Assembly (NCBI GenBank): GCA_020630795.1
Contig: JAHDIK010000006.1
Span: 86,655 to 150,654 of the forward strand
Reading direction: 5' to 3'
DNA from: Colwellia sp.
GTDB taxonomy: Bacteria > Pseudomonadota > Gammaproteobacteria > Enterobacterales > Alteromonadaceae
DNA: 64,000 nucleotides
This document shows positions 3,556 through 55,144 of the stretch, in pieces. Each line of letters opens with the position of its first letter. Position 1 is the first letter of the stretch. The notes under the pieces were generated by a model. It was not told where the DNA came from. It searched no databases and saw only the letters and a program-made list of their open reading frames with translations. The position numbers and the translations under genes are program-made.

Positions 3556-3870
3556 ATGGCATCTAAAAAGGTAGTTTTAGCATTTGAAGTATGGAAAGAC
3601 ATTAAACGAAATATTTTAGTGTTTATTTTGATGTTGATGGTGGTTGTATCGTCATTTTATGTGATTTATTACACGCATTTGCATCGCCAAACTACAAGTG
3701 TATTAGAAACATTATTAGTAGAACGAGATGAGCTAGATATTGAGTGGCGAAACTTGTTGTTAGAACAAAATAGTTTAGCTGAACATAGCGCCATAGAAAG
3801 TAAGGCAGCAAAACAGTTAAACATGAAGCGTCCAGACGCTAAATCGGAAATAATTATAACCTTGCCATGA
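3556..3870 (+). CDS. ftsL: Cell division protein FtsL
   Basis: Small bitopic inner-membrane division protein that forms a complex with FtsB and FtsQ and activates FtsWI. A short cytoplasmic N-terminus, one membrane segment at about residues 18-39 and a leucine-rich coiled coil (about 48-80) are visible. Length 104 aa is typical. The stop overlaps the ftsI start by 4 nt (ATGA), so the genes are coupled. Sequence conservation of FtsL is low and the call rests on position and architecture. Confidence 0.92.
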   Translation: MASKKVVLAFEVWKDIKRNILVFILMLMVVVSSFYVIYYTHLHRQTTSVLETLLVERDELDIEWRNLLLEQNSLAEHSAIESKAAKQLNMKRPDAKSEIIITLP

Positions 3871-8534: not shown

Positions 8535-9616
8535 TGTTACTTTGGTTAGGTGAGTTTTTAACTCAATTTTATAGCGGCTTTAATGTTTTTTCTTATTTAA
8601 CATTTCGAGCAATTGTCAGCACATTAACGGCGCTAACTCTTTCTTTGTATTTTGGTCCTAAGCTGATCAAGTATTTGCAAACAATGCAAATTGGCCAAAC
8701 CGTACGTGATGATGGCCCTGAAAGTCATTTATCGAAATCAGGTACGCCTACAATGGGCGGTATTCTTATTTTAGCGTCTATCGTTTTTAGTATTTTACTG
8801 TGGGGCGACCTATCAAATATTTACGTTTGGGTAGTGCTTTTTGTTGTTGTAAGTTTCGGGTTAATCGGTTTTGTAGACGACTACAGAAAAGTTATTCGTA
8901 AAGACTCTAACGGCTTAATTGCGCGGTGGAAGTATTTTTGGCAAACCGTTGTGGGGTTAGCAACAGCACTGTTTTTATATTCTATTGCTCAAAGCCCAGA
9001 AGAAACATCATTAATTATTCCTTTTGTAAAAGATGTACTCCCACAATTGGGAATTTTTTACATTGTGATGACATATTTTGTGATTGTGGGCACCAGTAAC
9101 GCGGTAAACCTGACTGACGGTTTAGACGGATTAGCTATTGTTCCGACCATTATGGTAGCTGGTGCATTTGGTTTATTTGCTTATGTAACTGGTAACGCTA
9201 ATTTTTCAGAATATTTAAATATTCCTCATATTCCGTTGACGAGTGAACTGTTAATTGTATGTACATCTATCGTTGGCGCAGGTTTAGGCTTTTTGTGGTT
9301 CAACACATATCCAGCGCAAGTTTTTATGGGCGATGTAGGTTCATTGGCTTTAGGTGCTGCATTAGGTGTTATTGCTGTATTAGTTAGACAAGAGCTTGTG
9401 TTGTTTATTATGGGCGGAGTGTTTGTTGTCGAAACCGTGTCAGTGATCCTTCAAGTGGGCTCTTACAAATTACGCGGACAAAGAATTTTTAGAATGGCTC
9501 CTATACATCATCATTATGAATTAAAAGGATGGCCGGAACCAAGAGTGATCGTAAGGTTTTGGATCATTTCATTAGTCTTAGTGTTAATTGGTTTGGCGAC
9601 TCTGAAATTACGTTAA
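8534..9616 (+). CDS. mraY: Phospho-MurNAc-pentapeptide translocase MraY
   Basis: Polytopic inner-membrane enzyme that transfers phospho-MurNAc-pentapeptide to undecaprenyl phosphate, giving lipid I. About ten hydrophobic segments are visible. The Mg/catalytic motifs [17 protein letters not shown] and [11 protein letters not shown] are intact, as is the C-terminal [13 protein letters not shown]. Length 360 aa equals the E. coli protein. It shares one base with murF; a 57-nt gap without obvious signals separates it from murD. Confidence 0.97.
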
Positions 9617-9673
9617 TAACGCTGACGATAGAGTGGTTAGAAAGGTTTACAAAAAAGGTTATAACAAAAGTAA

Positions 9674-11041
9674 GTGAAAACATTGCAAAAATTAAATATA
9701 GCGCAATTTAAAAACAAGAATATTGTTGTGTTAGGTGCAGGCCTAACAGGACTTTCTTGCGCGCGATTTTTGCAAAAAAATAATGTAGATTTTGTAGTTA
9801 ATGATAGCCGTGACGAACCAGTTGATACTGCGCAATTTAACGAAGACTTTCCAAATGCTAGGTTAGTTTTAGGTAGTTGGAATGCTGACGTTATTAATCA
9901 AGCAGATATATTGTTAGTAAGCCCAGGTATTGATTTATCGGTTGATGCTATTCAATCAAATATTTCTGAGTCATGCGAGGTGATGGGGGATGTAGAGCTC
10001 TATTGCCGACTTAGCGATACTCCTATTTTGGCAGTTACTGGGTCTAATGGTAAATCAACGGTTGTTTCATTATTGGCCTACTTAGGTAAAGCGTTAGGGT
10101 TTAAAACTGAATTAGCAGGGAACATTGGTGTTCCTATTTTAGACTTGCTAAACGACGAGCTAGACTATTTAGTGCTTGAGTTATCAAGCTTTCAGCTTGA
10201 AACAATGAGTAGCATGAATGCTATCGCCTCAAGTATTTTAAATATCAGTGACGATCATTTGGATCGTCATAAAACAATGGCTAATTATACAGCGATTAAG
10301 CAACGTATTTATTCACAAAGTCGTGTTGCAATATTCAATCGTGATGATAAAGCAACACACGCTTCTGACGTAACTGAGAGCGTATCATTTGGGAGTGACG
10401 CGCCAAACGAAAAATCTTTTGGCTTAGCTGTTCATAACAATCATACCTATTTAATGTTTGGTAACGAGAAACTAATAGCCGTTGATGAATTACCGTTGGC
10501 AGGCTTACACAACGCATTAAATTACTTGGCTGCTTTAGCACTAGGACAGCAGGCTGGCTGGTCATTAGAGGCAATGGTCACAAGTTTATCAGGGTTTGAA
10601 GGTTTGCCACATCGCTGTCAGCGCATAGAAACATCAGATAATAAACAATGGATAAATGACTCAAAGGCAACCAATGTTGGCGCTACGTTAGCGGCTATAT
10701 CAGGTTTGTCGTCTCTGTTAACTCAAGATCAAAAGTTAGTATTAATTGCTGGTGGCGATGGCAAGGGGGCAGATTTTTCACCACTTAGTCATCCTATTAA
10801 AGAACACGTTAGCCAGTTGTACGTATTAGGTAAAGATGCAATGAGAATTGCTAACGTAGCAGAACACAGCTTTTGTGTAGACTCGATTGAAGAAGCTGTT
10901 GAATTAGCGGACGCTTGTACGACTGAGGGCGATGTAATTTTATTATCGCCAGCGTGTGCAAGTATCGACATGTTTACTAACTTTGTAGAGCGCGGAAATG
11001 TATTTACTCGTGCAGTACAAACGATGCAGGAGCCTACGTAA
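9674..11041 (+). CDS. murD: UDP-MurNAc-L-alanine:D-glutamate ligase MurD
   Basis: Adds D-glutamate to UDP-MurNAc-L-Ala. The N-terminal UDP site [13 protein letters not shown] begins at about residue 17, ATP loop VTGSNGKST near 121, and the C-terminal domain carries [12 protein letters not shown] typical of MurD. Length 455 aa is usual. The assigned start is GTG at 9674 with only a weak AAAAG upstream; a TTG three codons later would also keep the whole domain, so the exact start is uncertain. It overlaps ftsW by one base. Confidence 0.95.
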
Positions 11042-12240
11042 TGACTGTTGCTGCTGAAAACATGAAATTACCTACATTACCTGAGTGGTTAACGCTTAGA
11101 ACAACGCCTGCTTCTACGTTCGACAGAACTTACATCATTTTAGGTGTGGCCATGTATATGATTGGGCTAGTAATGGTAGCTAGTTCTTCAATGCCTATCG
11201 CGGAACGTCTATTTAATAATCCATTTCATTTTATGGTTCGTCATGCAATATACATTGGATTGAGTGTTGGAATCGCAGCTATCGTGATGCAAATCCCTTT
11301 GTCAGCATGGCATAAACACAGTACACACTTACTGATTTTTGGTATTGGTTTACTGGTGGTTGTATTACTGGTTGGGCGTACCGTTAACGGGTCAACTCGC
11401 TGGATTGTTCTTGGGCCTATTACTATTCAAGCCGCAGAACCTGCGAAATTGTTCTTTTTCTGCTATTTAGCGGCTTATCTCGTACGACGCCGTGATGAGG
11501 TTATGGAGAATGTTAAAGGCTTTATTAAGCCATTAATTGTATTTGGCGTTCTTGCTGGTTTATTACTTATTCAGCCTGACTTAGGTACAGTTATTGTGAT
11601 GTTTGTAACCACATTTGGATTGCTATTTTTAGCGGGCGCTAAGTTGTGGCAGTTTATCTCAGTTGCAGGTGTCGGGCTAGTTGCTATTAGTGCTTTGGCC
11701 TATTTTTCTCCGTATAGATGGGCACGTGTAACAGGCTTTTTAGACCCATGGAAAGATGCATTTGGCACAGGTTACCAACTCACTCAATCTCTTATGGCAT
11801 ACGGCCGCGGAGAAGTATTTGGCCAAGGCTTAGGAAACAGTATTCAAAAGCTAGAATATTTACCCGAAGCGCACACAGATTTTGTTATGGCGGTGATGGC
11901 TGAAGAGTTTGGCTTTATTGGTATCGCAGCCATCTTGTTGTTGAGTATAACCTTAGTGATTAAAGCGTTGTTACTTGGGCGTTATGCAGTAAGCAAAGAA
12001 AAGTATTTTGAAGGATTTTTCGCCTATGCCATTGGCATTTGGTTTAGTTTTCAAACCGCTGTTAATTTAGGCGCTAGCGCAGGTATTGTTCCAACAAAAG
12101 GATTAACAATGCCGCTAATTAGTTACGGCGGGAGTTCAATGATCATTATGACCATTGCACTAGTTGTATTATTAAGAATTGACCACGAAATCAGGTTGCA
12201 AAGCATGCAAGCAACCAGTAAAGGGGGTCGAAAGAAATGA
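11041..12240 (+). CDS. ftsW: Septal peptidoglycan glycosyltransferase FtsW
   Basis: SEDS-family polytopic membrane protein that polymerises lipid II during division in complex with FtsI. About ten membrane segments; conserved RWxxLGPxxxQxAEPAK (about residues 120-137), the catalytic-loop aspartate region [10 protein letters not shown] and the C-terminal ISYGGSS motif are present. Length 399 aa is normal. It overlaps murD and murG (ATGA), so the block is translationally coupled. Confidence 0.96.
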
Positions 12241-13352
12241 GCGAGACGAACATTTTAAATAACGAACAAACAAAAGCACCTACTATTTTAGTAATGGCTG
12301 GTGGTACTGGCGGACATATATTCCCGGGTATTGCAGTAGCAGATCACCTTAAATCAAAAGGTTGGAATGTACATTGGCTAGGTACGGCTAAACGTATGGA
12401 AGCGACTTTAGTGCCAGAGCACGGTTACGATATTTCTTTTATCAATATTGCAGGACTAAGAAATAAGAACTGGAAAGAATGGTTAAAAACACCGTTTAAA
12501 TTATTACAGTCGGTATTGCAGTCTATTCAAGTTATACGAAAAGTTAAACCTGACGTTGTACTTGGGATGGGGGGCTATGCAAGTGCTCCAGGTGGAGTTG
12601 CTGCTTGGATAATGGGCAAGCCACTAGTGTTGCACGAACAAAATGCAGTAGCGGGTATGAGCAATCGATTTTTAGCTAAGTTAGCGACGAGAGTGTTAAG
12701 CGCTTTTCCTGATGCATTTGAAAGTAAAATTAAGCATGAAGTTATTGGTAATCCTTTACGTAGCGATATTATCGCGATTGATAACGTAATACCTGAACAG
12801 CCAGCAAGTAGTAAAAAAGTATTGGTAGTTGGCGGTAGTTTAGGCGCTAAAGTACTAAATGAAACTGTGCCGCAAGCGATGAAACAAATAAAGCTTCAGA
12901 GTATTGATGTATGGCATCAAACAGGTAAAGGTAATCAAGAATCTGTATTAGAAAGTTACCAGGAATACGGACTACCTGAAGACAAAGTAAAAGTTACGGA
13001 GTTTATTGAAGATATGGCTAAAGCCTATGAATGGGCTGATGTCGTTATATGCAGAGCAGGCGCGTTAACCGTGTCTGAATTAGCGATGGCAGCAAAACCT
13101 GCCGTATTTGTACCATTACCGCATGCTGTAGACGATCATCAAACGAAAAATGCTATGTATTTAGTTTCTCGCGGTGCAGCAAAACTGCTTCCTCAGTCCG
13201 AATTTAACGGTACAACATTAGCACAGTTACTAAATAGTCTATTTATATCAGACACTGTAGTACAAAAAATGGCAAAAGCAGCCCATGATGCTGCACATGC
13301 AGATGCAACCAAAAACGTAGCCGAAATTTGTGCTGAGTTGGGTTCAAAATGA
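12237..13352 (+). CDS. murG: UDP-GlcNAc:lipid I GlcNAc transferase MurG
   Basis: Peripheral inner-membrane GT-B glycosyltransferase that converts lipid I to lipid II. The N-terminal glycine loop [10 protein letters not shown] is at about residues 22-31, the HEQNA segment at about 133-137 and the donor-binding region [12 protein letters not shown] at about 271-282. Length 371 aa includes a roughly 14-residue N-terminal extension relative to E. coli. Overlaps of 4 nt with both ftsW and murC show tight coupling. Confidence 0.96.
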
Positions 13353-14806
13353 GTAAAAGAATGACAGAAAACACAACTAAACCATACGAGCGTATGAGAA
13401 CCCCAGAAATGAGACGTGTAAAACGTATTCATTTTGTTGGTATTGGTGGCGCCGGTATGGGCGGAATAGCAGAAGTTTTATTAAACGAAGGTTATGAAAT
13501 AACCGGATCTGACATTGGTGAAAACCTAGTTGTGAAGCGATTAACAGCTTTAGGTGCAAAAGTTACGATTGGTCATCATCAAGACAATATTAAAGGGGCT
13601 AGCGTAATCGTAGTGTCTACCGCTATAGATAAGTCTAACCCTGAAATACAACACGCTATAGAGCAAAGAATACCGGTAGTACGTAGAGCTGAAATGTTAG
13701 CGGAACTCATGCGCTTTAGGCATGGTGTAGCGATTGCTGGAACGCATGGTAAAACTACTACTACAAGTTTGATTTCTAGCGTATTTGCAGAAGCACAGCT
13801 TGATCCTACCTTTGTTATTGGTGGTTTGCTGAATAGTGCGGGTACCAATGCACGTTTAGGAAATAGTCGTTACTTAATCGCTGAAGCAGACGAAAGCGAT
13901 GCATCATTTTTACACCTTCAACCAATGGTAGCGGTAGTCACCAATATTGATGAAGACCACATGGAAACTTATCAAGGTGATTTTGAAAAGCTTAAAGACA
14001 CCTACATAGAGTTTTTACATAACTTACCTTTTTATGGCTTAGCGGTTGTATGTATCGATAATCCTGTAGTGCGAGAGTTGCTTCCACGTATTGGCCGCCA
14101 AGTGATTACTTATGGTTTTTCGTCTGACGCCGACGTGCAAGCGACAGAATTTACACAAACCAACGGTATGAGTTATTTCACTGTTAATCGAGTAGGGAAA
14201 AAACCACTTAAATTAAGTGTTAATTTGCCGGGCGAACACAATGTATTAAATGCATTAGCGAGTATTGCTGTTGCAACTGATGAAAATGTAGAAGATGGCG
14301 CGATAAAGTCAGCGTTAGAAAAATTTGCCGGTATTGGTAGACGTTTTGAACAATTAACAACGTTTAAAACCGATAAAGGCGAAATGATATTAGTGGATGA
14401 TTACGGTCACCACCCAAGAGAAGTACAAGCAACTATTAAAGCGATGCGAAACGGCTGGCCTGAGAAACGTTTAGTTATGATTTTTCAACCACATCGTTAC
14501 TCAAGAACGCGTGATTTATATGAAGACTTCGTAGAAGTGCTATCTGAGGTTGATAGCTTATTCCTACTCGATGTTTACGCGGCAGGTGAAGCCTTAGTAA
14601 CTGGTGCAGACAGTAAAAGTTTAGCACGAAGCATTCGTCAACGCGGCCAAGTAGAGCCTATTTACGTAAGTGATGTAACTAAGTTAGAAGAGTTACTCGT
14701 GAATCATCTAAATGATGGTGACATGGTCATTACGCAAGGTGCAGGAAATATTGGCGCCATCGCGAAGTCTTTGGCAACAAGCTCACTACTTGGAGGTAAT
14801 TCATAG
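13349..14806 (+). CDS. murC: UDP-MurNAc:L-alanine ligase MurC
   Basis: First Mur ligase, adding L-alanine to UDP-MurNAc. The N-terminal dinucleotide-like motif [12 protein letters not shown] is near residues 28-39, the ATP loop GTHGKTTTT near 130-138, and [10 protein letters not shown] near 346-355 lies in the third domain. Length 485 aa is normal. The ATG overlaps the murG stop; internal ATG codons at residues 5 and 15 could also start. Its stop overlaps the GTG start of ddlB by one base. Confidence 0.96.
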
Positions 14807-42755: not shown

Positions 42756-45557
42756 CTAACTAGGATCTGCAATTCTAACCGCTGGAGCCGTTGTCATCGC
42801 TTCTGTAGGTGGAGCAAAGCGAGTTAAGTCAATACCTTCTACCGCTGCTGTATACTCATCCATTGTTGGGAAGCGACCTAAGATACTTGAAAGTACAACG
42901 AGTGGAGTTGAACCAAGTAAAGATTCACCTTTCTTGTCAGCCGTATCGGCAACAACGCGGCCTTGGAATAGACGTGTTGAAGTAGCAATAACAGTGTCGC
43001 CAGGTTCAGCTTTTTCTTGGTTACCCATACATAAGTTACAACCAGGACGTTCTAGATACATGATATTGTCGTATTTCGTACGAGCTTCACCTTTAGGGTT
43101 AGCGTCGTCAAATACAAAGCCTGAGTATTTCTCTAGTACTGCCCAATCACCTTCAGCTTTTAACTCATCAACAATGTTGTATGTTGGTGGTGCAACTACT
43201 AATGGTGCTTTAAACTCTATACTGCCGTTCTGTTTTTCTAGGTTACGTAGCATTTGAGCGATGATTTGCATATCACCCTTATGAACCATACATGAGCCTA
43301 CAAAACCTAAATCTACAGGTTTTCCATCATAGTACGAAACAGGGCGAATAACATCGTGAGTATAACGCTTAGATACGTCGTCGTTGTTAACGTCTGGATC
43401 GGCGATCATTGGTTCAACTATGGTATCTAAATCGACTAATACTTCAGCATAATATTTTGCTGTGCTATCTGGTGCTAATGCGGGCTGCTCGCCAGATTTA
43501 ATACCAGCAATACGTTCATCTGCTAGGTTAATCAAACCAGCTAATGTACCAGCTTTATTTTCCATACCCTTATCAATCATGATTTGGATACGGCTTTTAG
43601 CTAGTTCGATTGATTTAATCAATGTTTCATCGTTAGAAATACAGATTGAAGCTTTTGCCTTCATTTCTGCAGTCCAATCAGTAAACGTAAATGCTTGGTC
43701 AGCCAACAAAGTTCCAATATGTACTTCAATAATGCGACCTTGGAATACGTTCTCTCCGCCAAATTGATTAAGCATTTGAGCTTGAGTTGCGTGTACAACG
43801 TCACGGAAATCCATGTGGCCAGCCATTTTACCTTTAAAGGTTACTTTAACTGATTCAGGAATTGGCATTGCTGATTCGCCTGTTGCAAGTGCTAACGCAA
43901 CCGTACCCGAATCGGCACCGAATGCTACACCTTTAGACATACGAGTGTGAGAATCACCACCAATGATGATTGAGCGGTCGTCAACCGTAATATCGTTTAA
44001 CACTTTATGAATAACATCGGTCATTGCATGGTATTCACCTTTTGGATCACGAGCTGTGATTAGACCAAAGGCGTTCATGAAACTCATTAACTTAGGAATG
44101 TTAGCTTTTGCTTTGCTATCCCATACAGATGCAGTGTGACAACCTGATTGGTATGCACCGTCAACAATAGGAGAGATAGTTGAAGCAGCCATCGCTTCTA
44201 GTTCTTGGCAAGTCATTGGGCCCGTAGTATCTTGAGAACCAACAATGTTTACTTTTACACGTACGTTAGAACCAGCATGCAACGGAGTCTCTGATGCAAC
44301 ACCAACAGCGTTACGGTTAAATATTTTCTCTACCGCAGTTAAGCCTTGGCCGTCGTTTGAAATTTCTTTAGCAGCAGCGTAAACAGCAGGAGCTTTGATA
44401 CCTAACGTTTCGGCAGCAAATGTTTGTAACTTCTTACCAAATACAACTGCGTATGAACCGCCTGCTTTCATGAACTCAACTTTTTGAGGAGTAAAAGCAG
44501 ATGAAACATCTGATAATTCTTTATCGCCGTTATACAGTTTTTTCGCTTTGGTATCGATAGTTAATACGGTACCCGTAGCAACTGAATAAACTTCTTCTAA
44601 AACAATGTCGCCGTCTTCGTCAGTTACCGTATTACCGTTAGCATCAACTTTCTTAACCCAGTTTTTAAGATCAAGACCTATACCGCCAGTTACGTCAACA
44701 GTTGTAAGGAAGATAGGAGCGATACCATTTGTACCAGCAACAACTGGAGCAATGTTGATAAACGGAACGTAAGGACTTGCTTGTTTACCAGCCCAAAGTG
44801 CAACGTTATTAACACCAGACATACGTGAAGAACCAACACCCATAGTTCCTTTTTCTGCAATAAGCATTACTTTAGCGTTAGGGTGCTTAGCTTGAAGTGC
44901 TTGGATTTCTTTTTGAGCTTCAGGAGTGATCATACACTGGCCGTGTAACTCACGGTCAGCACGTGAGTGTGCCTGGTGACCAGGAGAAAGTAAATCAGTT
45001 GAGATGTCGCCTTCACCTGCGATGTAAGTTACAACGTCAATTTTTTCGTCAATAGCAGGAAGCTTAGTGAAAAACTCTGCGTTTGCGTAACTTTCTAATA
45101 GGTTTTTAGCTACAGCGTTTCCAGATTTATATGCTGTTTCTAAACGAGTCATATCTGCGTCGTACAAGAATACTTGTGTTTTTAAAACGTCTGAAGCTGG
45201 AGCAGAAACTGCCTCATTATCGCTTAGTGCAAGATCGAGTAGCACTTCAATCGAAGGTCCACCTTTCATGTGAGAAAGTAATTCAAAAGCGAACGCTGGA
45301 GTAATTTCTGCTACTTGCTCTTCGCCTAGAATAATTGCTTTTAAGAATTTAGCTTTCTCGCCAGCTGCACTTGTTGTTCCTGGAAGCGTGTTGTAGATAA
45401 AAAAGTTAAGAGAATCTTCACGGTGTGCATTCCCTTGATCTTTAATTTGTTCGATAATTTCAGCTAACAACTCTGCGCTATCAATAGGCTTAGGTGCTAA
45501 ACCAAGCTCCTTCTTACGGGTTTCAATTTCCGCTATATATTTTGAATAAAGGCTCAT
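42756..45557 (-). CDS. Long AcnB-type aconitase paralogue (bifunctional aconitate hydratase 2/2-methylisocitrate dehydratase family)
   Basis: 933-aa iron-sulfur dehydratase of the AcnB type, expected to interconvert citrate and isocitrate and perhaps 2-methylisocitrate. Cluster cysteines are in GSCMVHKGD and PGCNLCMGNQ; the GGDSHTRMSKG and [11 protein letters not shown] active-site segments are present. It is about 70 residues longer than classical AcnB, with extra sequence around KKVDANGNTVTDEDGD. The N-terminal region (YSKYIAEIETRKKELG, NFFIYNTLPGTTSAAGEKAK) resembles Bacteroidota-type AcnB as I remember it. It is divergent from classical acnB 260 bp away. Which substrate it prefers cannot be read from sequence. 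Confidence 0.88.
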   Translation of the reverse strand: MSLYSKYIAEIETRKKELGLAPKPIDSAELLAEIIEQIKDQGNAHREDSLNFFIYNTLPGTTSAAGEKAKFLKAIILGEEQVAEITPAFAFELLSHMKGGPSIEVLLDLALSDNEAVSAPASDVLKTQVFLYDADMTRLETAYKSGNAVAKNLLESYANAEFFTKLPAIDEKIDVVTYIAGEGDISTDLLSPGHQAHSRADRELHGQCMITPEAQKEIQALQAKHPNAKVMLIAEKGTMGVGSSRMSGVNNVALWAGKQASPYVPFINIAPVVAGTNGIAPIFLTTVDVTGGIGLDLKNWVKKVDANGNTVTDEDGDIVLEEVYSVATGTVLTIDTKAKKLYNGDKELSDVSSAFTPQKVEFMKAGGSYAVVFGKKLQTFAAETLGIKAPAVYAAAKEISNDGQGLTAVEKIFNRNAVGVASETPLHAGSNVRVKVNIVGSQDTTGPMTCQELEAMAASTISPIVDGAYQSGCHTASVWDSKAKANIPKLMSFMNAFGLITARDPKGEYHAMTDVIHKVLNDITVDDRSIIIGGDSHTRMSKGVAFGADSGTVALALATGESAMPIPESVKVTFKGKMAGHMDFRDVVHATQAQMLNQFGGENVFQGRIIEVHIGTLLADQAFTFTDWTAEMKAKASICISNDETLIKSIELAKSRIQIMIDKGMENKAGTLAGLINLADERIAGIKSGEQPALAPDSTAKYYAEVLVDLDTIVEPMIADPDVNNDDVSKRYTHDVIRPVSYYDGKPVDLGFVGSCMVHKGDMQIIAQMLRNLEKQNGSIEFKAPLVVAPPTYNIVDELKAEGDWAVLEKYSGFVFDDANPKGEARTKYDNIMYLERPGCNLCMGNQEKAEPGDTVIATSTRLFQGRVVADTADKKGESLLGSTPLVVLSSILGRFPTMDEYTAAVEGIDLTRFAPPTEAMTTAPAVRIADPS

Positions 45558-45817: not shown

Positions 45818-48409
45818 GTGATTGGAGAATATCGTAAACATATAGAAGAGCGTGCTGCTCAAGGTATTGTACCTAAACCGCTAAATGCAGAACAAACAGC
45901 TGACCTTGTTGAGCTTATAAAGTCGCCCCCTGAAGGTGAAGAAAGCTTCCTAATCGATTTGTTAACTAATCGTGTACCTGCAGGTGTTGATGACGCAGCT
46001 TACGTTAAAGCAGGTTTTTTATCAGCTGTTGCAAAAGGCGAAACGGGCTCTCCAATTTTGTCTGCGGAAAAAGCGACAGAATTATTAGGCACAATGTTAG
46101 GTGGTTATAACATTCAACCTATGATTGATTTATTAGATGACACAGCGCTATCGTCAATTGCGGCAAAAGGGTTGTCGAACACATTACTAATGTTTGACGC
46201 ATTTCATGATGTGAAAGATAAAGCTGATGCTGGAAATGAAGCGGCGAAAGCGGTTATGCAATCGTGGGCAAACGCCGAATGGTTTACGAGTAAAGAAAAA
46301 GTTGCCGAAAAAATTACGGTTAAAGTATTCAAAGTGACTGGTGAAACGAATACCGACGACTTATCTCCTGCGCCAGATGCTTGGTCTCGCCCTGATATTC
46401 CATTACACGCTAAAGCGATGCTTAAAATAGGGCGCTATGGTATAACACCTGATGAAGATGGAGTTGTAGGGCCAATACAACAAATTGAAGAGTTACAAAA
46501 AGATGGTATTCCACTCGCCTACGTTGGTGATGTAGTAGGAACAGGGTCATCGCGTAAGTCGGCTACCAATTCTGTTTTATGGTTTATGGGAGACGATATT
46601 CCGTGTATTCCTAATAAGCGTGGTGGTGGAGTTTGTTTGGGTGGGAAAATAGCGCCAATTTTTTATAATACCATGGAAGATTCAGGCGCTTTACCTATCG
46701 AATTAGATGTTCAAAAAATGCACATGGGTGATGTGATTGATATTTACCCATATGAAGGCGTCGTGAAAAATTCAGCAGGCGAAGTTATTTCTGAATTTGA
46801 ATTAAGCCCTGTATTACTTGATGAAGTTCGTGCTGGTGGTCGAATTCCTCTGATTATTGGGCGAGGCTTAACGGGAAGAGCGCGTGATGCTTTAGGTTTA
46901 CCAGCGACAGACTTATTTAGTAAACCTGAAGAAATAGAAGCCTCTAACAAAGGTTATACATTAGCGCAGAAAATGGTAGGAAAGGCATGCGGTGTTGCTG
47001 GTGTTAGAGCAGGCCAATACTGTGAACCTAAAATGACTACCGTTGGCTCTCAAGATACTACAGGGCCGATGACTAGAGATGAACTAAAAGACTTAGCTTG
47101 CTTAGGTTTTTCAGCAGATTTAACCATGCAATCTTTTTGTCATACGTCGGCATATCCCAAGCCTGTAGATGTTGTAACCCATCATACGTTACCTGACTTT
47201 ATGATGAACCGAGGCGGTGTTTCACTTCGACCAGGAGATGGAGTTATCCATTCTTGGTTAAATCGTATGTTGTTGCCTGACACTGTTGGTACAGGAGGTG
47301 ATTCACACACACGTTTTCCATTAGGTATTTCATTTCCTGCAGGTTCTGGCTTAGTGGCTTTTGCAGCTGCAACCGGCGTAATGCCTCTAGATATGCCTGA
47401 ATCCGTTTTAGTACGTTTTAAAGGCGAAATGCAACCAGGCATTACGTTGCGTGATCTTGTACATGCAATTCCATATTATGGAATTAAAAATGGTTTATTA
47501 ACCGTTGAAAAAGCGGGTAAAGTTAACGAATTTTCTGGGCGTGTTCTTGAAATTGAAGGGCTAAAAGGCCTAACAGTAGAGCAAGCTTTTGAATTGTCTG
47601 ATGCTTCTGCTGAACGTTCTGCCGCTGGTTGTACTATAAAATTAGAGCAAGAGTCTGTTGCTGAATATCTTGAATCAAATATTGTTATGCTCAAATGGAT
47701 GATCAGCGAAGGGTATGGCGATGTACGCACGATTGAACGTCGCATTAAGGGCATGCAAGAATGGTTAGCAAATCCATCACTTATGGAAGCTGATTCAGAC
47801 GCAGAATATGCTCATGTTATAGAAATAGATTTAGCTGATATTAAAGAGCCAATCGTATGTTGTCCTAATGATCCTGATGACGCTAAATTACTTTCTGATG
47901 TTCAAGGTACACAGGTAGATGAAGTGTTTATTGGCTCGTGTATGACCAATATTGGTCATTTCCGCGCAGCAGGTAAGTTGATTGAAGAGTATGGAGAAGC
48001 ATTACCTACACGTTTATGGGTAGCCCCTCCAACTAAAATGGACAGAGATCAACTAACAGCTGAAGGTTATTATGGAATTTATGGTCGTGCAGGTGCACGT
48101 ATGGAAACTCCGGGCTGTTCACTATGTATGGGAAATCAAGCTCGCGTGGCGGAAAAATCAACCGTATTGTCTACCTCTACTCGTAATTTCCCAAATCGTT
48201 TAGGTACTGGAGCTAACGTGTATTTAACGTCTGCTGAACTAGCGGGAGTTGGTGCAATATTAGGAAAACTTCCTTCGCCAGCTGAGTATATGGAATACGC
48301 GTCAAAAATAAATTCGACAGCCGCGGATACATACCGATACTTAAACTTTCATCAAATGGAAAGTTATACGAACAAAGCTGACACTGTGATTATTCAAGAA
48401 CCAGCGTAA
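45818..48409 (+). CDS. acnB: Aconitate hydratase B AcnB
   Basis: Main TCA-cycle aconitase of gammaproteobacteria, also able to act on 2-methylisocitrate. HEAT-like domain (about residues 1-160), swivel domain, then the 4Fe-4S domains. It aligns closely with E. coli AcnB throughout: [46 protein letters not shown] and GCSLCMGNQ with three cluster cysteines. Length 863 aa against 865 in E. coli. ATG or GTG: the start here is GTG at 45818 after a GGGGGAA ribosome site. E. coli AcnB also binds mRNA when the cluster is lost. Confidence 0.97.
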
Positions 48410-48434: not shown

Positions 48435-48467
48435 AAAAAAAACGCCGCTATTAGCGGCGTTTTTTAT
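48435..48467. terminator. Bidirectional terminator between acnB and the TonB-like gene
   Basis: ACGCCGC (48442-48448) pairs with GCGGCGT (48454-48460), flanked by A on the left and T on the right, so it can act in both directions. The stop codon of the minus-strand gene lies in its edge. Confidence 0.9.
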
Positions 48468-49198
48468 TCATATTTTTTCATTGCCTTTTTTATGTGGTCA
48501 CTAAAATTCTGATCAAATTCGCTCTTTCCACAGCTAAAGTACTGAGTTGAAGTTACACCTTCAATACCAACAGAAGACAAGTCTTGTTTAATAGCACAAT
48601 TACCGCTTTTTCTTTTTTCTATCGAAATTCCTGCTCCATAATTGGTAGTGCGTAACTGTTTTTCGGCCTCAATTTTCTCAGGTGTTTTCGTTGTAGATTT
48701 AGGTACCAATTTGGGGGTAGGGTTAAAAATGCTGCGAACTGTTGAATGTGTACGCTCGTTAACTGAGTCGTAAGGTGTGTTTAATTGATTTTTCCTTAGG
48801 TTATTAAGTTGTTCTTTAAGTTTTTGTTCTGTAATTATATTTTTAGGTTCATCTTTTAACGAATATTTGTTTTTTACGTGTTTGGTCTTTTCTATTGTTT
48901 GTATTTTAGGTTTGTCAGTTTTTTTTATAGATAGTGACTTACTAACTTTTTTTTTCGGAGCCTGAACTATAGGTTGTGATTTAGGTGTTGATACGTATTT
49001 TTCACTACTTTGCTCAATGGTATTCGTTACCTTTTGGCGAATAGGCGTATATAAAAAACTCTTTATAGTTTGAGGTTTATTCGCTTTAGGTTTAGGAATT
49101 GATGTTTGTGTTTTACAAAACTGTGCAGAAAGTAACAAAAATAAAATGGCGTGGAGTAATAAAGAAACTAACAACGCTTTTGTTACACCATTCAACAA
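48464..49198 (-). CDS. TonB/TolA-like inner-membrane protein
   Basis: 244-aa protein with one N-terminal membrane segment (about residues 7-26), a long Lys/Pro/Thr-rich linker (about 30-190) and a small C-terminal domain (about 195-244) containing two cysteines (GNCAIKQDL and YFSCGKSEF). This is the plan of TonB or TolA: a cytoplasmic-membrane anchor, a periplasm-spanning linker and an outer-membrane-facing domain. No clear YP motif of canonical TonB is present. It diverges from a TonB-dependent receptor, so an energising role is plausible but unproven; TolA-like function is an alternative. Confidence 0.55.
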   Translation of the reverse strand: MLNGVTKALLVSLLLHAILFLLLSAQFCKTQTSIPKPKANKPQTIKSFLYTPIRQKVTNTIEQSSEKYVSTPKSQPIVQAPKKKVSKSLSIKKTDKPKIQTIEKTKHVKNKYSLKDEPKNIITEQKLKEQLNNLRKNQLNTPYDSVNERTHSTVRSIFNPTPKLVPKSTTKTPEKIEAEKQLRTTNYGAGISIEKRKSGNCAIKQDLSSVGIEGVTSTQYFSCGKSEFDQNFSDHIKKAMKKYE

Positions 49199-49325
49199 AC
49201 TATTTCCCCAATAAAAACTATATATATCAGAGCAGCAACTTTCTAATTAGTTCCCTTTATAAAAAGTAATCACAAAATGAGTTATACATCAATAATGAAA
49301 ATTACACATTGTTAACAAAATACGA

Positions 49326-49353
49326 TTGACAATGGTGCTTAAGAGGCTATAAA
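49326..49353 (+). promoter_or_regulatory. Predicted promoter of the receptor gene
   Basis: TTGACA (49326-49331), 16-nt spacer, TATAAA (49348-49353): near-consensus sigma70 promoter. The leader would be about 80 nt. I found no recognised operator in the 244-bp divergent gap. Confidence 0.7.
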
Positions 49354-49442
49354 GTGGTCAATACAGGTATAGCTTGTAAGGTTATTTTCCAAGTGTTGTA
49401 CCTGACAAAAAAACATGAAAACAAAATATATAGGGGATTCAT

Positions 49443-52226
49443 ATGGCTACTAAAGGTTTTAAGTTAAGTAGTGTTTATTTAGCAATGATGGTTGCATCAA
49501 GCGTTAGTGTACAAGCGCAAGAAGCTACCGCTAATAAAGCAGACGAAACAGAAGTTATTCAAGTTACGGGTATTTTTAGTTCATTAAGTAAATCTGCTGC
49601 AGTAAAAAGAGATGCATCGGGTGTTGTAGACGCTATTTCTGCGGAAGACATCGGTAAATTTCCAGACACAAACCTTGCAGAATCAATTCAGCGTATTTCT
49701 GGTGTTTCTATTGATAGAGCAAATAATGAAGGAAACAAAGTTACAGTTCGTGGTTTTGGGCCTGCTTTCAACTTAGTTACCTTAAATGGTCGTCAAATGC
49801 CTAACTCTTCGGTACTAGAATCTGCTGGCGTGAGTCGTAGTTTTAATTTCCGTGAAATCGCAGCAGAAAGTGTAAGTGGTGTAGAAATTCATAAAACAGG
49901 TAAAGCACATATTTCGACGGGTGGTATCGGTGCTACTGTTGATATTCAAACGGCTAAGCCTTTTGATTATGGCGAATTTAAAGCGTTTGCTAGTGCTAAA
50001 GGTGTATACGATACAAGTGTAGAAGATGAAGGTAGCAAAGTAACACCTGAAATTTCAGGTATGATTAGCCAAGTATTTGCCGATGGCAAATTTGGTGTTT
50101 TATTCTCAGCATCACATGCTGAACGTGATTCACACCGAGATCGTGTTGGTACTGATGGTTGGGTACGTAATCGCGGTAATCGCTCTCAAATTGACACGTC
50201 AAATATAAGTTCACAAAATCCTGATGAGTCTTTTTGGACACCGTGGACTGCGGTTGTTGAGCATTATGACACGGAACGTGAGCGCCAAAACGCTCAGCTT
50301 GTTTTACAAGCTGCTCCAATTGATAGTCTTGTTGCGACATTAAACTATACGATTTCTCGCTTCGAAGAAGTGAGTAATACAAATCGCATGGCATTTTGGT
50401 TTGATGACCCATTTGGTACAGCTGATGAAAATGGTACTGTTTGGAATCCTCGAGATCCTGATGATGAGCTAAACTTTTGGGCATGGCAATATTATGAGAA
50501 AAAAGAGAATGACTCGTTAGGTTTAAATATTGAATGGCAAGCTACAGAAGCGTTAAGTTTTGAGTTTGATTACCATGATTCAACATCACACTCTAACCCC
50601 GATGGCCAAACGGCAGAAACTCTAGCTAACTTAAAAAATATTAAGACAGACGATGGGTTAGGCGTTGATATCGGTGCTGACTTTGTTGGCGACATCCCTG
50701 TCATTTATGTAGACGATAGCAAATTGCCAGGTGGTGGTTACGCTGGAGAAAACATTGTATCTGACTTATATCAACAACGTGGTTTTGAAATGGAAAACAA
50801 CGTTGAGCAAATTAAGCTCTCGGGTAAGTGGGAAAACTTAAGAGACGGGGCGTTATCTGCAATTAACTTTGGTGTTCAACAAACGGATTACAGTATCGAT
50901 ACGTTCAGAAGTGGCGTTTTTCAATTTAGAAGTATTCCAACAACAGGCTTAGATTTAAGTTTTGTTGAGCGTGGCGATACGTCAGACCAATTCTCTGGTG
51001 CTAATGAGCTGTTTCCATTTATACCTAAATATAGTGCTTTAGATTTTATTGATATTGTACAAAATGAAGGCTTATACGAAGAACCAAATATTGTAACGAA
51101 TGGTGTTACCGAAGATACTCTTGCCGCATACGTTTCGTTCGATTTTGAAACAGAGTTTAATGACTTGCCTGTTAATTTGAATGTAGGTGTTCGTTACGAA
51201 AAAACTGACGTATCAGCTTATACAGTTCAAGATGGTTTGTTAGCATTAAACTACCGTAATGTTGAAGAACTTGAAGTTATTGATGACGATATTCCAGCGC
51301 CACAGAGCTTAAGTGGTGAATATTCTCGTATATTGCCTAACTTTGACTTTTCAATTGAACCAATGGACGATTTAATTACTCGTTTTTCATATAGTCGTAC
51401 TATTGCTCGACCTAATATTGGACAGCTTTTCCCTGGCACAAATTTAAACGCTCCTCGCCCAGGCGACCCGTTTAAAGCGTCTCAAGGTAATCCTAGCTTG
51501 TTGCCAGTGACGTCAGACAATTTTGATCTATCTGTTGAATGGTATCTTGATGACGGCAGTTATGTATCTGTGGCATATTTTAAGAAATTTGTTGAAAATT
51601 TCATTGTTAATGGTACTGAAGATAGAAAAATTCTAAACGTAAATGGTGAAGTAATAACTGATCCAAGTGCTAACCCTAGAGCCGGTTGTCCTGATCCAAG
51701 TACAGTTCCAAATCCTGCTTGTTTAAGTCAGGCAGGTGATCCTGAAATAACTTGGGAAGTAACAACCCCAGTAAACTTACAAAACCGTAAAGTTGATGGT
51801 TGGGAGTTGAACGCTCAATATATGTTTGGTGATAGCGGCTTTGGTGGACAAGCAAACTACACTTTAGTTGAAAGTGACGAAACTTATGATGTGTTTAATT
51901 TTGATCAGTCAGCAGCATTAACGGGTTTGAGTGACTCTGCTAACATTGTTGGTTTTTACGAAAAAGACTCGGTTCAAGTTAGATTAGCTTATAACTGGCG
52001 TGATGATTTTCTTCAATCTTTAGGTAGTGAGCCAAGATTTGTAGAAGCTTACGGGCAATGGGACTTAAGCGCGAGTTATGAAATTAATGAAAATCTTTCG
52101 GTATTTATTGATGGTATTAACTTAACCAACGAAACTACACGCCGTTATGGCCGCTTTGAAAATCAATTAATTGATGCAGAGCAATACGGTGCGCGATATG
52201 CTGTAGGTATTCGTGGATCTTGGTAG
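49443..52226 (+). CDS. TonB-dependent receptor (Xanthomonas/Caulobacter-type)
   Basis: Outer-membrane 22-strand barrel that imports a ligand using TonB energy. Signal peptide ends near VQA (residue 25), a TonB-box-like EVIQVTG is at 37-43, the plug follows (DIGKFPDTNLAESIQRISGVSI, seen in parts), and the barrel ends in Trp (GIRGSW). NIGQLFPGTN and the DGSYVSVAYFKK region are typical of the TIGR01782 group. Length 927 aa is usual. Partners are a halogenase homologue and SapC, a set often linked to uptake of sugars or peptides in marine bacteria. The ligand is unknown. Confidence 0.9.
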   Translation: MATKGFKLSSVYLAMMVASSVSVQAQEATANKADETEVIQVTGIFSSLSKSAAVKRDASGVVDAISAEDIGKFPDTNLAESIQRISGVSIDRANNEGNKVTVRGFGPAFNLVTLNGRQMPNSSVLESAGVSRSFNFREIAAESVSGVEIHKTGKAHISTGGIGATVDIQTAKPFDYGEFKAFASAKGVYDTSVEDEGSKVTPEISGMISQVFADGKFGVLFSASHAERDSHRDRVGTDGWVRNRGNRSQIDTSNISSQNPDESFWTPWTAVVEHYDTERERQNAQLVLQAAPIDSLVATLNYTISRFEEVSNTNRMAFWFDDPFGTADENGTVWNPRDPDDELNFWAWQYYEKKENDSLGLNIEWQATEALSFEFDYHDSTSHSNPDGQTAETLANLKNIKTDDGLGVDIGADFVGDIPVIYVDDSKLPGGGYAGENIVSDLYQQRGFEMENNVEQIKLSGKWENLRDGALSAINFGVQQTDYSIDTFRSGVFQFRSIPTTGLDLSFVERGDTSDQFSGANELFPFIPKYSALDFIDIVQNEGLYEEPNIVTNGVTEDTLAAYVSFDFETEFNDLPVNLNVGVRYEKTDVSAYTVQDGLLALNYRNVEELEVIDDDIPAPQSLSGEYSRILPNFDFSIEPMDDLITRFSYSRTIARPNIGQLFPGTNLNAPRPGDPFKASQGNPSLLPVTSDNFDLSVEWYLDDGSYVSVAYFKKFVENFIVNGTEDRKILNVNGEVITDPSANPRAGCPDPSTVPNPACLSQAGDPEITWEVTTPVNLQNRKVDGWELNAQYMFGDSGFGGQANYTLVESDETYDVFNFDQSAALTGLSDSANIVGFYEKDSVQVRLAYNWRDDFLQSLGSEPRFVEAYGQWDLSASYEINENLSVFIDGINLTNETTRRYGRFENQLIDAEQYGARYAVGIRGSW

Positions 52227-52270
52227 AAACGATATTAACTATATAAGGAATAGTTAATGCTTTGAAAGGA

Positions 52271-52294
52271 AGCCGCCGTAATAAGGCGGCTTTT
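52271..52294 (+). terminator. Hairpin after the receptor gene
   Basis: AGCCGCC (52271-52277) pairs with GGCGGCT (52285-52291), then TTTTG. The short U-run suggests partial termination, letting some transcripts continue into the halogenase gene. Confidence 0.75.
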
Positions 52295-52326
52295 GTATAA
52301 CTGTATCTTTAACTTTAGGAGTTTTT

Positions 52327-53877
52327 ATGGAGAATCCTATTAAATCAATTGTTATTGTAGGTGGTGGCACCGCTGGCTGGATAACTGCTGGTGTAATCGC
52401 GTCTACATTAAAAAAAAGTGCAGGTTCAAATTATTCCGTTACGTTAGTTGAGTCTCCTGACATACCAAATGTAGGGGTGGGCGAAGGTACTTGGCCCACA
52501 ATGCGTAATACTTTAAACAAAATGGGAATACGAGAAACTGATTTCATTGAAAAATGTAATGTGTCATTTAAGCAGGGGGCTAAGTTTTCCCAATGGGTAA
52601 CTGGCGATAAAGATGATTTTTACTATCACCCGTTAGTGTTACCTCAAGGTTTTCATAACATAAATTTAGCAGCTCATTGGGGAGAAGGTGGTAACAACAA
52701 ATCTTTTTCTCAAGCGGTGTGCCCGCAAGAGGAGATTTGTGAACTAGGCTTAGGTCCTAAAAAAATGGTTACTGCTGAATACGCAGCGGTTGCTAATTAT
52801 GCGTATCATTTAGACGCAGGTAAGTTTTCTGAGTTTTTAACTAACCATTGCGTTGAATACCTAAACGTTAAACATATTCTTGATAATGTAGTAAGCGTTA
52901 ATAACAAAGACGGCGACATTTCGTCTGTTTCTACTAAACATAATGGTGATGTTGCAGGCGATTTATTTATAGATTGTACAGGCTTTAAATCACTGTTGCT
53001 GGGAGAGCACTTCAACGTCCCATTTAAATCATGCAAAGACCAACTCTTTTCAGATACTGCTATTGCTGTTCAAGTGCCTTATCAAGATGACAATAGCGAA
53101 ATAGCATCTCATACTATATCTACAGCGCAATCGGCGGGGTGGATATGGGATATTGGCTTATTTAACCGTCGTGGAGTAGGGCATGTTTTTTCTAGCCAAT
53201 ACATATCAGAAGAAAAAGCAAAACAAGAGCTGGTTGATTATTTGAAAGAATCTTGCACCAATACTGATGACTTAAACTTTAGAACTATTAATTTTAACCC
53301 CGGACATAGAGAAAAATTTTGGGAAAAAAATTGTGTAGCGGTTGGTTTATCTGCTGGATTTCTAGAGCCTTTAGAAGCATCGGCATTGCTACTTGTTGAA
53401 ATATCCGCTCAAATGATTGCAGAGCAATTACCAACTCACAGGCGAGCAATGGACATTGTTGCTAAACGATTTAACGAAACCTTTCTTTATCGTTGGGATC
53501 GAATTATTGATTTTTTGAAATTGCACTATATGCTAAACAAGCGATCAGATAGTCAGTTTTGGATTGATCATCGAGCGCCGGAAACTGTTTCCGATTATTT
53601 AAAAGAGCAACTTGAACTTTGGAAGTATCAAGTTCCGAGTGATCATGACTTTGAGCACGCTTTAGAAGTTTTTCCAGCAGCTAGTTACCAGTACGTGCTT
53701 TATGGCATGGGGTTTAAAACAAACGCTAACCCAAGAGGTTTATCTGATACCAGTTACCGAGAAGCTCAGAATTACTTTGATAAAAACGAAAAACAAAAAC
53801 AAGAATTTATTTCTACACTCATGCCAAACCGAGAACTCTTAAAGAAAATACATAGATACGGTTTGCAGAAAGTGTAA
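52327..53877 (+). CDS. Tryptophan-halogenase-family flavoprotein (FAD-dependent halogenase homologue)
   Basis: 516-aa member of the PrnA-like family. FAD motif VGGGTAGW is at residues 11-18 and the second motif GVGEGTWP at 50-57. The catalytic lysine corresponding to PrnA Lys79 is Lys82 (NVSFKQG), and the FLEPLE segment is at 345-350. The characteristic WxWxIP motif reads WIWDIG at 272-277, with Gly for Pro. It lies between the receptor and sapC, with TAGGAG before the ATG. Substrate is unknown; the enzyme may not act on tryptophan, and halogenation itself is not shown. Confidence 0.85.
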   Translation: MENPIKSIVIVGGGTAGWITAGVIASTLKKSAGSNYSVTLVESPDIPNVGVGEGTWPTMRNTLNKMGIRETDFIEKCNVSFKQGAKFSQWVTGDKDDFYYHPLVLPQGFHNINLAAHWGEGGNNKSFSQAVCPQEEICELGLGPKKMVTAEYAAVANYAYHLDAGKFSEFLTNHCVEYLNVKHILDNVVSVNNKDGDISSVSTKHNGDVAGDLFIDCTGFKSLLLGEHFNVPFKSCKDQLFSDTAIAVQVPYQDDNSEIASHTISTAQSAGWIWDIGLFNRRGVGHVFSSQYISEEKAKQELVDYLKESCTNTDDLNFRTINFNPGHREKFWEKNCVAVGLSAGFLEPLEASALLLVEISAQMIAEQLPTHRRAMDIVAKRFNETFLYRWDRIIDFLKLHYMLNKRSDSQFWIDHRAPETVSDYLKEQLELWKYQVPSDHDFEHALEVFPAASYQYVLYGMGFKTNANPRGLSDTSYREAQNYFDKNEKQKQEFISTLMPNRELLKKIHRYGLQKV

Positions 53878-53890
53878 ACAAGGATTAAAC

Positions 53891-54613
53891 ATGGCAAATT
53901 TTAAAATATTAGATTCAAATACACATAAAAATACGCGTGTAAAACTCGGCCGTGGTGCTGAGTTTGGTGAGAACATTCATACGGTTCCAGTTATTGCGGA
54001 AGAGTTACACCAACTTGTATTGGAATATCCAATATGTTTTATAAAAGACAACAACACTGGTCAGTTTGGTTTAAATGCATTATTAGGTTTTGAGGTTGGT
54101 GAAAATTTATTTTTAGAAGGTAATAAGTGGAATGCACAGTACGTACCTTTACATATAAGACGCCAACCATTTATGGCTGGAATAAACGGAGAAGACGGCG
54201 ACAGGCCGACCGAAGAAAACACGGTTATCACCATCAATATGGACAACACTCGTGTGCAAGAAAGCGAAGGTGAATTGCTGTTTGATGCCGATGGTAAGCT
54301 TACACCTTATATGGAAACCGTTAATAATTTATTGGCTACATTGGTGAACGGAATTATTCGTACAGAAGCGTTTGTAAAAGCATTGTCAGATAACGATTTA
54401 ATAGAGCCTGTTCAACTCAAAGTCTCTTTTGCTTCAGGCGAAGAAAAAAGATTTGATGGCGTGTATACCATACACGAAGAAAATTTTAAAAATCTATCGG
54501 CAGAGGTTTTATCAGCATTTCACCGTAGCGGTTATCTTCAAGCTATTTACATGTTAAAAGTTTCTATGGGTAATATTCAAAAGTTAGTTTCAATGAAAAA
54601 TAAAACGCTATAA
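53891..54613 (+). CDS. SapC-family protein
   Basis: 240-aa protein of the SapC family (PF07277), first noted near an S-layer gene in Campylobacter but without a firmly known function. HTVPVIAEELHQLVLEYPICF (noted in parts: TVPVIAEE, YPICF) and VPLHIRRQPFMAG are the conserved stretches, and the acidic middle (GEDGDRPTEEN) is typical. No signal peptide or membrane segment is visible. It starts 13 nt after the halogenase gene, so they are co-transcribed. A role with the receptor is inferred from linkage. Confidence 0.87.
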   Translation: MANFKILDSNTHKNTRVKLGRGAEFGENIHTVPVIAEELHQLVLEYPICFIKDNNTGQFGLNALLGFEVGENLFLEGNKWNAQYVPLHIRRQPFMAGINGEDGDRPTEENTVITINMDNTRVQESEGELLFDADGKLTPYMETVNNLLATLVNGIIRTEAFVKALSDNDLIEPVQLKVSFASGEEKRFDGVYTIHEENFKNLSAEVLSAFHRSGYLQAIYMLKVSMGNIQKLVSMKNKTL

Positions 54614-54637
54614 ATACTCTTTATTTATTATGACTTC

Positions 54638-54665
54638 TAAAAACACCACTTGTTGGTGTTTTTTC
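54638..54665 (+). terminator. Terminator after the SapC gene
   Basis: AAACACCA (54641-54648) pairs with TGGTGTTT (54654-54661) over a 5-nt loop, followed by T-rich sequence. It ends the receptor-halogenase-SapC unit. Confidence 0.88.
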
Positions 54666-54769: not shown

Positions 54770-55144
54770 ATGGAATACGAATTTATTAATGATTCATTAA
54801 CAGGCTTATCGAGCGCTCGTTTTTCAATGGAACACGAGATTATGGGGCCTTGGTTAGAAGTGGAGATAGGAAATAGCATCCCCAAGTTAACAACATTACT
54901 TGAAACCATTGATGATATTAAAACGCGATCTAAAGAAGACGTATATATTACAGGGAGTGAATATACATTGGTGTTTAGCCAAGAGTCTGTTCAGGTTGTT
55001 GCAAATAGCTCATTTAATCAAGACTCAAATGATGAGGACAACGAACTTGAAGAAGGACTAATGACCGATTTCGATTCATCAGCAGAATGTGGTATTGAAG
55101 ACTTTAAAACGTTGTTAATGCAATGGTCAGCTTTTATAAAATAA
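54770..55144 (+). CDS. yacL: UPF0231-family protein YacL
   Basis: 124-aa protein of unknown function, conserved in gammaproteobacteria. The N-terminus MEYEFINDSLTGLSSARFSMEHE and the C-terminal CGIEDFKTLL match E. coli YacL in pattern and length, with an acidic stretch (about residues 88-105). In E. coli it follows acnB directly; here a 6.3-kb block intervenes. The stop lies 1 bp from the stop of the convergent HDOD gene, with no terminator between. Confidence 0.9.
   Translation: MEYEFINDSLTGLSSARFSMEHEIMGPWLEVEIGNSIPKLTTLLETIDDIKTRSKEDVYITGSEYTLVFSQESVQVVANSSFNQDSNDEDNELEEGLMTDFDSSAECGIEDFKTLLMQWSAFIK

Follow-up and report, generated by a model that had tools for sequence, protein, structure and literature searches.

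Flavin-dependent halogenases include enzymes of free tryptophan, such as PrnA and RebH, the peptide tryptophan halogenase MibH, and the enzymes BrvH and Xcc4156, which brominate indole-type substrates in vitro. We describe here a relative of these enzymes encoded in a locus of three genes, between acnB and yacL, in 64,000 nucleotides of DNA from Colwellia sp. (assembly GCA_020630795.1, contig JAHDIK010000006.1, positions 86,655 to 150,654 of the forward strand). This whole stretch is called the window, and positions are counted from its first letter. The three genes, called the trio, encode a TonB-dependent receptor, a halogenase-fold flavoenzyme and a SapC family protein. According to PMC7336383, the native substrate of BrvH and of the Xanthomonas halogenases is unknown, their halide loop is altered, and the protein of PDB entry 2pyx is unnamed and unpublished. 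In BrvH the active site is open to solvent, and its authors liken it to that of MibH, whose substrate is tryptophan as part of a peptide (PMC5945002).

Among solved structures, the nearest to the window enzyme is this same 2pyx, named as a tryptophan halogenase: the match is full length, at 573 bits, and the two proteins have in common the motifs WIWDIGL and EPLEASAL. Its source organism is, we presume, Shewanella frigidimarina. Two further entries named tryptophan halogenases, 9lu2 and 9ltb, follow at 460 and 446 bits, with WDIAL where the window enzyme has WDIGL; the literature searched yielded no paper for these two codes. BrvH (6frl) and Xcc4156 (6y1w) belong to the same superfamily, but with much lower similarity, 243 and 214 bits, and their bromination of indole-type substrates is not a known activity of the window protein. 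The window enzyme has the equivalents of the flavin adenine dinucleotide (FAD) motif and of the catalytic lysine and glutamate of PrnA, RebH and other free-tryptophan halogenases; it differs from them in lacking the motif WxWxIP and their halide-loop residues, PrnA and RebH score 231 to 243 bits, and no biosynthetic cluster lies nearby. MibH, which we take to be the protein of entry 5uao, is in the same superfamily but distant, at 173 bits. The eight proteins scanned between positions 42756 and 55988, trio included, contain no lantibiotic genes and none for nonribosomal peptide synthetases, polyketide synthases or ribosomally synthesised and post-translationally modified peptides.

An earlier note on this DNA had placed three open reading frames between acnB and yacL, and they are indeed there, on the same strand, each matching its family above the cut-off. 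The receptor (49443-52226, + strand, 927 amino acids) belongs to the TIGR01782 class with 651.7 bits for a cut-off of 310; Pfam finds its Plug domain at 61.9 bits and its barrel at 115 bits, and its N-terminus looks like a signal peptide. After a gap of 100 nucleotides comes the flavoenzyme (52327-53877, + strand, 516 amino acids; PF04820, 393.4 bits, cut-off 21), then, after 13 nucleotides, the SapC family protein (53891-54613, + strand, 240 amino acids), which matches PF07277 over residues 7-232 with 234 bits, for a cut-off of 28.9, and has no hydrophobic N-terminus. The name SapC comes from a role in the surface layer. In the literature searched, no paper joined SapC with tryptophan halogenase, or SapC with cupin and TonB-dependent, and papers on the SapC family or PF07277 were, by title and abstract, about saposin or unrelated subjects; a prior description of the gene set is not thereby ruled out.

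A recurrent module in the Colwelliaceae

A receptor, a flavoenzyme of the class WxWDI[G/A/S], defined in the next section, and SapC form a recurrent, co-diverging module in the Colwelliaceae, and of this we are close to certain. Twenty genomes were searched and SapC was found in 13; the counts below refer to these 13 genomes, chosen for having SapC. They hold 138 TIGR01782 receptors above the cut-off, a number that is a lower bound: in five genomes (G001, G002, G005, G006 and G011) 36 of the 40 to 59 receptor candidates were scored, and counts of enzymes lying away from a receptor are upper bounds. Six receptor places split over two rows were merged, as were two rows of one PF04820 gene, and the weak PF04820 rows, at 52.8, 44.7, 48.5 and 33 bits, were dropped. 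At least 88 of the 98 remaining PF04820 genes have a receptor no more than 5 kb away, versus 4.8 expected from the share of the genome covered. For SapC the count is at least 27 genes out of 39 within the same distance of a receptor, and 27 out of 39 are near a halogenase. The earlier note would have been refuted by a rarity of such co-occurrence; it is far above chance.

The window's genome has four SapC genes and 15 clear PF04820 genes, and three of its SapC genes follow a receptor gene and then a halogenase gene. The trio of contig C6 carries a 699-amino-acid cadherin-like protein between receptor and halogenase, and is near a major facilitator superfamily (MFS) transporter and an altronate-dehydratase-like gene, so named from reading its sequence; the trio of contig C28 adjoins genes of an FGGY kinase, an alpha-galactosidase and a sodium symporter. 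The same set of genes was found outside the family in Rheinheimera, in Alteromonas and in one Cellvibrionaceae genome, and a control genome, Caulobacter vibrioides, matches all three protein families by profile search. The earlier note's statement that the set recurs near sugar or peptide uptake genes is borne out for sugars, several Colwelliaceae modules adjoining sugar genes, and not for peptides, since nothing that we met supports peptide uptake. Its extension to Xanthomonas- and Caulobacter-like bacteria gains no support from the phylum-wide search described below, in which a halogenase lay within 1.5 kb at 1 of the 30 best-scoring SapC loci.

Elsewhere the module is extended by Cupin_8, DUF6445 or a further halogenase: L099, L104, L105, L108, L112 and others combine Cupin_8 or DUF6445 with a second halogenase, of class WxWxIP or WxWxID. 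In two modules of the clade of the window's receptor, FG-GAP/ASPIC repeat proteins follow the enzymes (L096:6805-8760 and L031:9452-11404). On contig C1 of G000, positions 2297-14552 (L028), a stretch of about 12 kb holds two receptors with four PF04820 genes, some between the receptors and some to their sides.

Over 28 modules, the pairwise distances of receptor, halogenase and SapC are correlated, with coefficients 0.70, 0.74 and 0.75, and none of 2000 permutations gives values as high. One SapC locus of this set, L082, was labelled as receptor-linked on a match of 22 bits and is better read as solitary. Shared descent of whole modules is enough by itself to explain this co-divergence.

The receptors were also placed on a tree. 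Sequences were available for 103 of the 138 receptor places: 48 are free of enzymes, 27 belong to trios, 27 are with a halogenase only, and 1 with SapC only. The 35 places left out comprise 24 enzyme-free and 10 halogenase-only places, and one without a long open frame. On this tree, association with the enzymes requires 16 changes, versus 34.4 when labels are shuffled: the enzymes are kept in some receptor lineages, and gained or lost in others.

SapC itself is more widely spread: of 299 genomes searched across the phylum, 104 have it. It could be that the enzymes serve a general function of the cell and are found next to receptors because islands of genes move together. Two observations speak for a role of SapC without a receptor: all but one of the 13 genomes have a single SapC gene, 12 in all, that lies more than 5 kb from any receptor found, which is an upper bound, and 29 of the best 30 loci of the phylum-wide search, read up to 1.5 kb on each side, have no halogenase. 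The single positive locus has Cupin_8 alongside and comes from a genome of the same family. These 29 loci argue for a wider role of SapC. However, the fixed order on one strand, the short gaps, the co-divergence, and the clustered pattern of repeated gain and loss on the receptor tree go beyond what passive linkage gives, and we consider hitch-hiking quite unlikely.

The solitary SapC gene of the window's genome (L023:5527-6291), with homologs in 12 genomes, is followed by genes of a coiled-coil-like protein, a DUF416 protein and a beta-lactamase-family protein; what it does may account for SapC as a whole. At six loci outside the family, ten genes next to SapC showed no common partner. The model of the window's SapC has a mean predicted local distance difference test score (pLDDT) of 92.4. 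Compared with the PDB, it gave no Foldseek match at an E-value of 0.001 or better, and VIA-align returned one chain, with Z 2.7; a missing match to this model would indicate neither a new fold nor a function. Four PDB sequences matched the SapC profile, all with E-values above 0.5, and were dropped.

The class of the flavoenzyme

We aligned 58 halogenases, 47 of which come from SapC loci, so that counts of association with SapC are biased upwards in this set. They carry WxWDI[G/A/S] in 32 cases, WxWxIP in 19 and WxWxID in 7. The first class is a single clade, with support 100, and SapC lies within 5 kb of 30 of its 32 members, in a sample that is, as said, rich in SapC loci. Within the window's genome, 14 of whose 15 halogenases are in the set, SapC is near three of the five WxWDI[G/A/S] proteins and near none of the nine WxWxIP proteins.

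The window enzyme has the flavin motif GxGxxG as GGGTAGW (residues 12-18, positions 52360-52380). Lys82 (52570-52572) and Glu350 (53374-53376) are the equivalents of K79 and E346 of PrnA, and both residues are present in all 58 aligned proteins. The motif WxWxIP is replaced by WIWDIGL (residues 272-278, 53140-53160), and after the glutamate comes A-S-A instead of the usual S-T-G or S-T-S. The conservation of lysine and glutamate throughout the set makes an active enzyme likely. Since WxWxIP and the usual halide-loop residues are lost, halogenation is not to be assumed, and the label that seems appropriate is that of a halogenase-fold flavoenzyme rather than a halogenase.

The same replacements, WIWDIG and A-S-A, are what one would expect if the flavoenzyme were a hydroxylase or another monooxygenase, WxWxIP being held to limit monooxygenation. 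Yet the lysine and glutamate needed for halogenation are there. The halide-loop glycine is likewise not kept in BrvH and the Xanthomonas halogenases, which nonetheless brominate test substrates (PMC7336383). A monooxygenase, which would overlap with the receptor-linked oxidative modification proposed in the last section, we consider less likely than not.

Agar sugars and the acnB-yacL junction

Among the loci read, the receptor closest to that of the window is in genome G011, with 69.5% identity, followed by that of G002, probably Pseudocolwellia agarivorans QM50, with 55.8%; the closest halogenase and SapC are both in G002, with 71.6% and 67.1%. Both of these receptors lie within loci for the catabolism of agar and 3,6-anhydrogalactose. 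The locus of G011 contains a glycoside hydrolase of family 117 (GH117; 617 bits to 3r4y and 452 bits to 4ak5), a 3,6-anhydro-L-galactonate cycloisomerase (506 bits to 5xd7), an aldolase of the 2-keto-3-deoxy-6-phosphogluconate type and a sugar-kinase-like gene. In G002 the GH117 protein is 79% identical to this one; the locus shares the dehydrogenases and also encodes a cycloisomerase homologue and a GH50 agarase (1186 bits to 6xj9).

The trio of the window, in contrast, stands alone, with acnB and yacL rather than agar genes as neighbours. The window's genome does have an agar locus, on contig C20, syntenic with that of G002 but without the trio. Identities between the two loci are 90% for the MFS transporter, 81% for GH117, 92% for the aldehyde dehydrogenase, 94% for the short-chain dehydrogenase/reductase, 85% for the zinc dehydrogenase and 87% for the cycloisomerase; the GH50 gene of C20 is truncated at the edge of the stretch read (L255, L256). 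Where G002 has its cassette, C20 has an IclR regulator and a PhyH protein, both found elsewhere in the locus of G002, and a 414-amino-acid protein without Pfam match. The trio between acnB and yacL is the counterpart of the cassette of the G002 agar locus. Its identity to that cassette, only 56 to 72%, suggests that it may be a separate acquisition and not a relocated copy. We think it rather probable that the receptor imports oligosaccharides of the neoagarobiose or 3,6-anhydrogalactose kind, and that these would feed the agar locus of C20.

The pair formed by the flavoenzyme and SapC is absent from the agar locus of C20, where the trio is lacking, and it stays with the receptor at the acnB-yacL junction; the two other trios of this genome are near the alpha-galactosidase and altronate-dehydratase-like genes. 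Pairs that accompany receptors near differing sugar genes, and remain with a receptor apart from the catabolic locus, suggest a task that belongs with the receptor rather than with any sugar. This bears on the alternative that the pair acts on a small molecule that enters through the receptor or signals for it, for example the phenolic or indolic groups of algal polysaccharides, in order to tailor or detoxify it. Its relative BrvH brominates free indole in vitro (PMC5945002), but that activity is low, and the authors doubt that indole is the natural substrate. Further oxygenase-like genes are at hand, Cupin_8 in some modules and PhyH in the C20 locus. Against the small molecule stand the very different sugar genes next to the same pair, and its distance here from the catabolic genes; we hold this alternative to be rather unlikely.

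We now turn to the junction itself. On the left, outside the module, acnB (aconitase B; 45818-48409, + strand) has the Pfam domains Aconitase_B_N, Aconitase_2_N and Aconitase. It lies head to head with a second, differing aconitase B-type gene, a diverged copy of 933 amino acids on the minus strand (42756-45557). On the right is yacL (UPF0231; 54770-55144, + strand), with 114.4 bits to PF06062. Between acnB and the trio, a minus-strand gene with a TTG start (48464-49198) encodes a weakly TolA-like protein of 244 amino acids, at 23.2 bits for TIGR02794, below the cut-off of 59.45. The earlier note had started its block at position 48464, which is in fact the end of this separate gene. Homologues exist in five of the 18 relatives surveyed, each within 1.7 kb of yacL, and no trio was found beside them in the stretches read; the gene thus belongs to the neighbourhood of yacL, and the module lies to its right. 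The match in G009 covers only the C-terminal two thirds of the protein.

These 18 relatives were searched for acnB and yacL, and in six of them the distance between the two genes is below 6 kb: about 210 bp in G002, 160 bp in G012 and 230 bp in G015, and, with other genes between, 1.8 kb in G010, 3.4 kb in G005 and 5.8 kb in G009. The junction is tight in some relatives and variable in others, and the trio was not found among the open reading frames of the six junctions. The view that a block separates two genes which are close together in several relatives is supported. The GC content of the trio is 38.3%, that of the window 38.2%, with no compositional break; apart from a T-rich run, its flanks have no repeat in common that reaches 11 bases, and the eight proteins scanned around it include no mobile gene. 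Neither composition nor repeats hint at a mobile element that arrived recently, and such a gain is thereby neither demonstrated nor excluded.

As to the promoter and terminators attributed to the block, 12 terminator-like sites were found in the region versus 4.6 in shuffled sequences. One is a hairpin with a T run at the end of acnB (48437-48465, + strand; 13 pairs), another closes the trio (54639-54663, + strand), and a third is in the gap between receptor and enzyme. Promoter-like sites, at 11 versus 19.2 in shuffles, are fewer than chance would give, and the site TTGACA-18 nt-TAAAGT at 49326-49355 (+ strand), which agrees with the consensus at 10 of 12 positions, is weak evidence for a promoter of its own. 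Rfam has no match here.

Hairpins in the operon and a proposed modification of the receptor

The hairpin between receptor and enzyme (52270-52292, + strand) has a perfect stem of 8 bp, a loop of 7 nucleotides and a T-rich tail, and is a candidate attenuator. Such hairpins, perfect and followed by a T-rich stretch, occur in 23 of 33 receptor-to-enzyme gaps, whose median length is 106 nucleotides, and in 0.3% of shuffled gaps; their sequences differ between loci. The other ten gaps, which include the ones in the C28 trios of the window's genome and of its closest counterparts, have none by the same test. The gap from halogenase to next gene is nearly contiguous, with a median of 15 nucleotides, and since it is so short, the absence of hairpins in 29 such gaps is no fair control. 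If the trio is one transcription unit, the simplest reading is that partial termination after the receptor gene would yield much receptor and little enzyme, which, as far as sequence can tell, would fit a catalytic role; alternatively, the enzymes may have a promoter of their own.

Hairpins of this kind could also be regulated, as they might be if the pair responded to a ligand or to the flavin or redox state, and set the amount of receptor accordingly, without any covalent product. SapC has no catalytic annotation, and the halogenase clade has lost the proline of WxWxIP and the usual halide-loop residues, as a sensor might. But the FAD motif and the catalytic lysine and glutamate are conserved throughout the 58 proteins, and Pfam finds no DNA-binding domain in either member of the pair, which makes a regulatory role very unlikely.

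Where the two proteins would act is suggested by their N-termini. SapC has no hydrophobic start and the enzyme begins with its FAD-binding strand: both probably act in the cytoplasm. The hydropathy scan made on the proteins of the 28 modules does not amount to a signal-peptide predictor: no more than 8 of the 28 receptors reached its threshold. Assuming this location, the receptor would take agar oligosaccharides into the periplasm, while a small cytoplasmic pair of enzymes would serve the receptor: the flavoenzyme, with SapC as partner, would oxidise or brominate some protein or peptide associated with the receptor; the simplest candidate is the precursor of the receptor, prior to its export. 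This receptor-linked oxidative modification, its chemistry left open, we put forward tentatively, as falling somewhat short of probable. More specific, and unlikely in our judgement, is a dedicated system for the covalent modification of TonB-dependent receptors, in which WxWDI[G/A/S] flavoenzymes and SapC, sometimes with Cupin_8 and DUF6445, would brominate or hydroxylate side chains from a cassette expressed at low level behind an attenuator in every receptor operon.

Several points weigh against receptor modification and the agar reading that goes with it. The receptor is 55.8% identical to that of G002 when the dehydrogenases and cycloisomerase of the agar loci are 85 to 94% identical, so that it could be a paralog with another substrate. 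The locus with the closest receptor, at 69.5%, has SapC but only a divergent halogenase, with 31.8% identity and on the other strand. Enzyme-free receptors are close sisters of enzyme-linked ones (G000:C28:163764 is an example), and together with the 16 changes on the tree they indicate that this class of receptors works without the enzymes. Only before export do receptor and enzymes share a compartment. BrvH, we assume, carries WxWxIP and is then outside the WxWDI[G/A/S] clade, which makes the analogy indirect.

A search for a target residue gave no direct support either. Among 242 receptor residues that are more frequent in enzyme-linked receptors, by a difference of at least 0.25, none follows the association with enzymes at p < 0.05 in independent pairs, the best, a leucine, reaching 0.0625, in a test whose power is low, with 11 or 14 pairs. 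Four tryptophans, Trp319, Trp365, Trp700 and Trp852, are commoner in trio receptors; as candidate targets they were rejected, the independent pairs that agreed and disagreed with the association numbering 1.5/1.0, 2.0/1.0, 2.2/0.0 and 1.2/0.0, with p between 0.5 and 1.

The earlier question of how a halogenase-like protein and SapC help a receptor is nevertheless narrowed. The enzyme belongs to a defined class that goes with SapC, the pair tracks the receptor and not one sugar, and the operon seems built for much receptor and little enzyme. Most genes that would be annotated as tryptophan halogenases in the 13 genomes are near receptors, while the native substrate of their described relatives is given as unknown in PMC7336383. 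Should the receptor turn out to be the substrate, we would have here a new type of outer-membrane protein modification; should it not, the simplest guess is removed.

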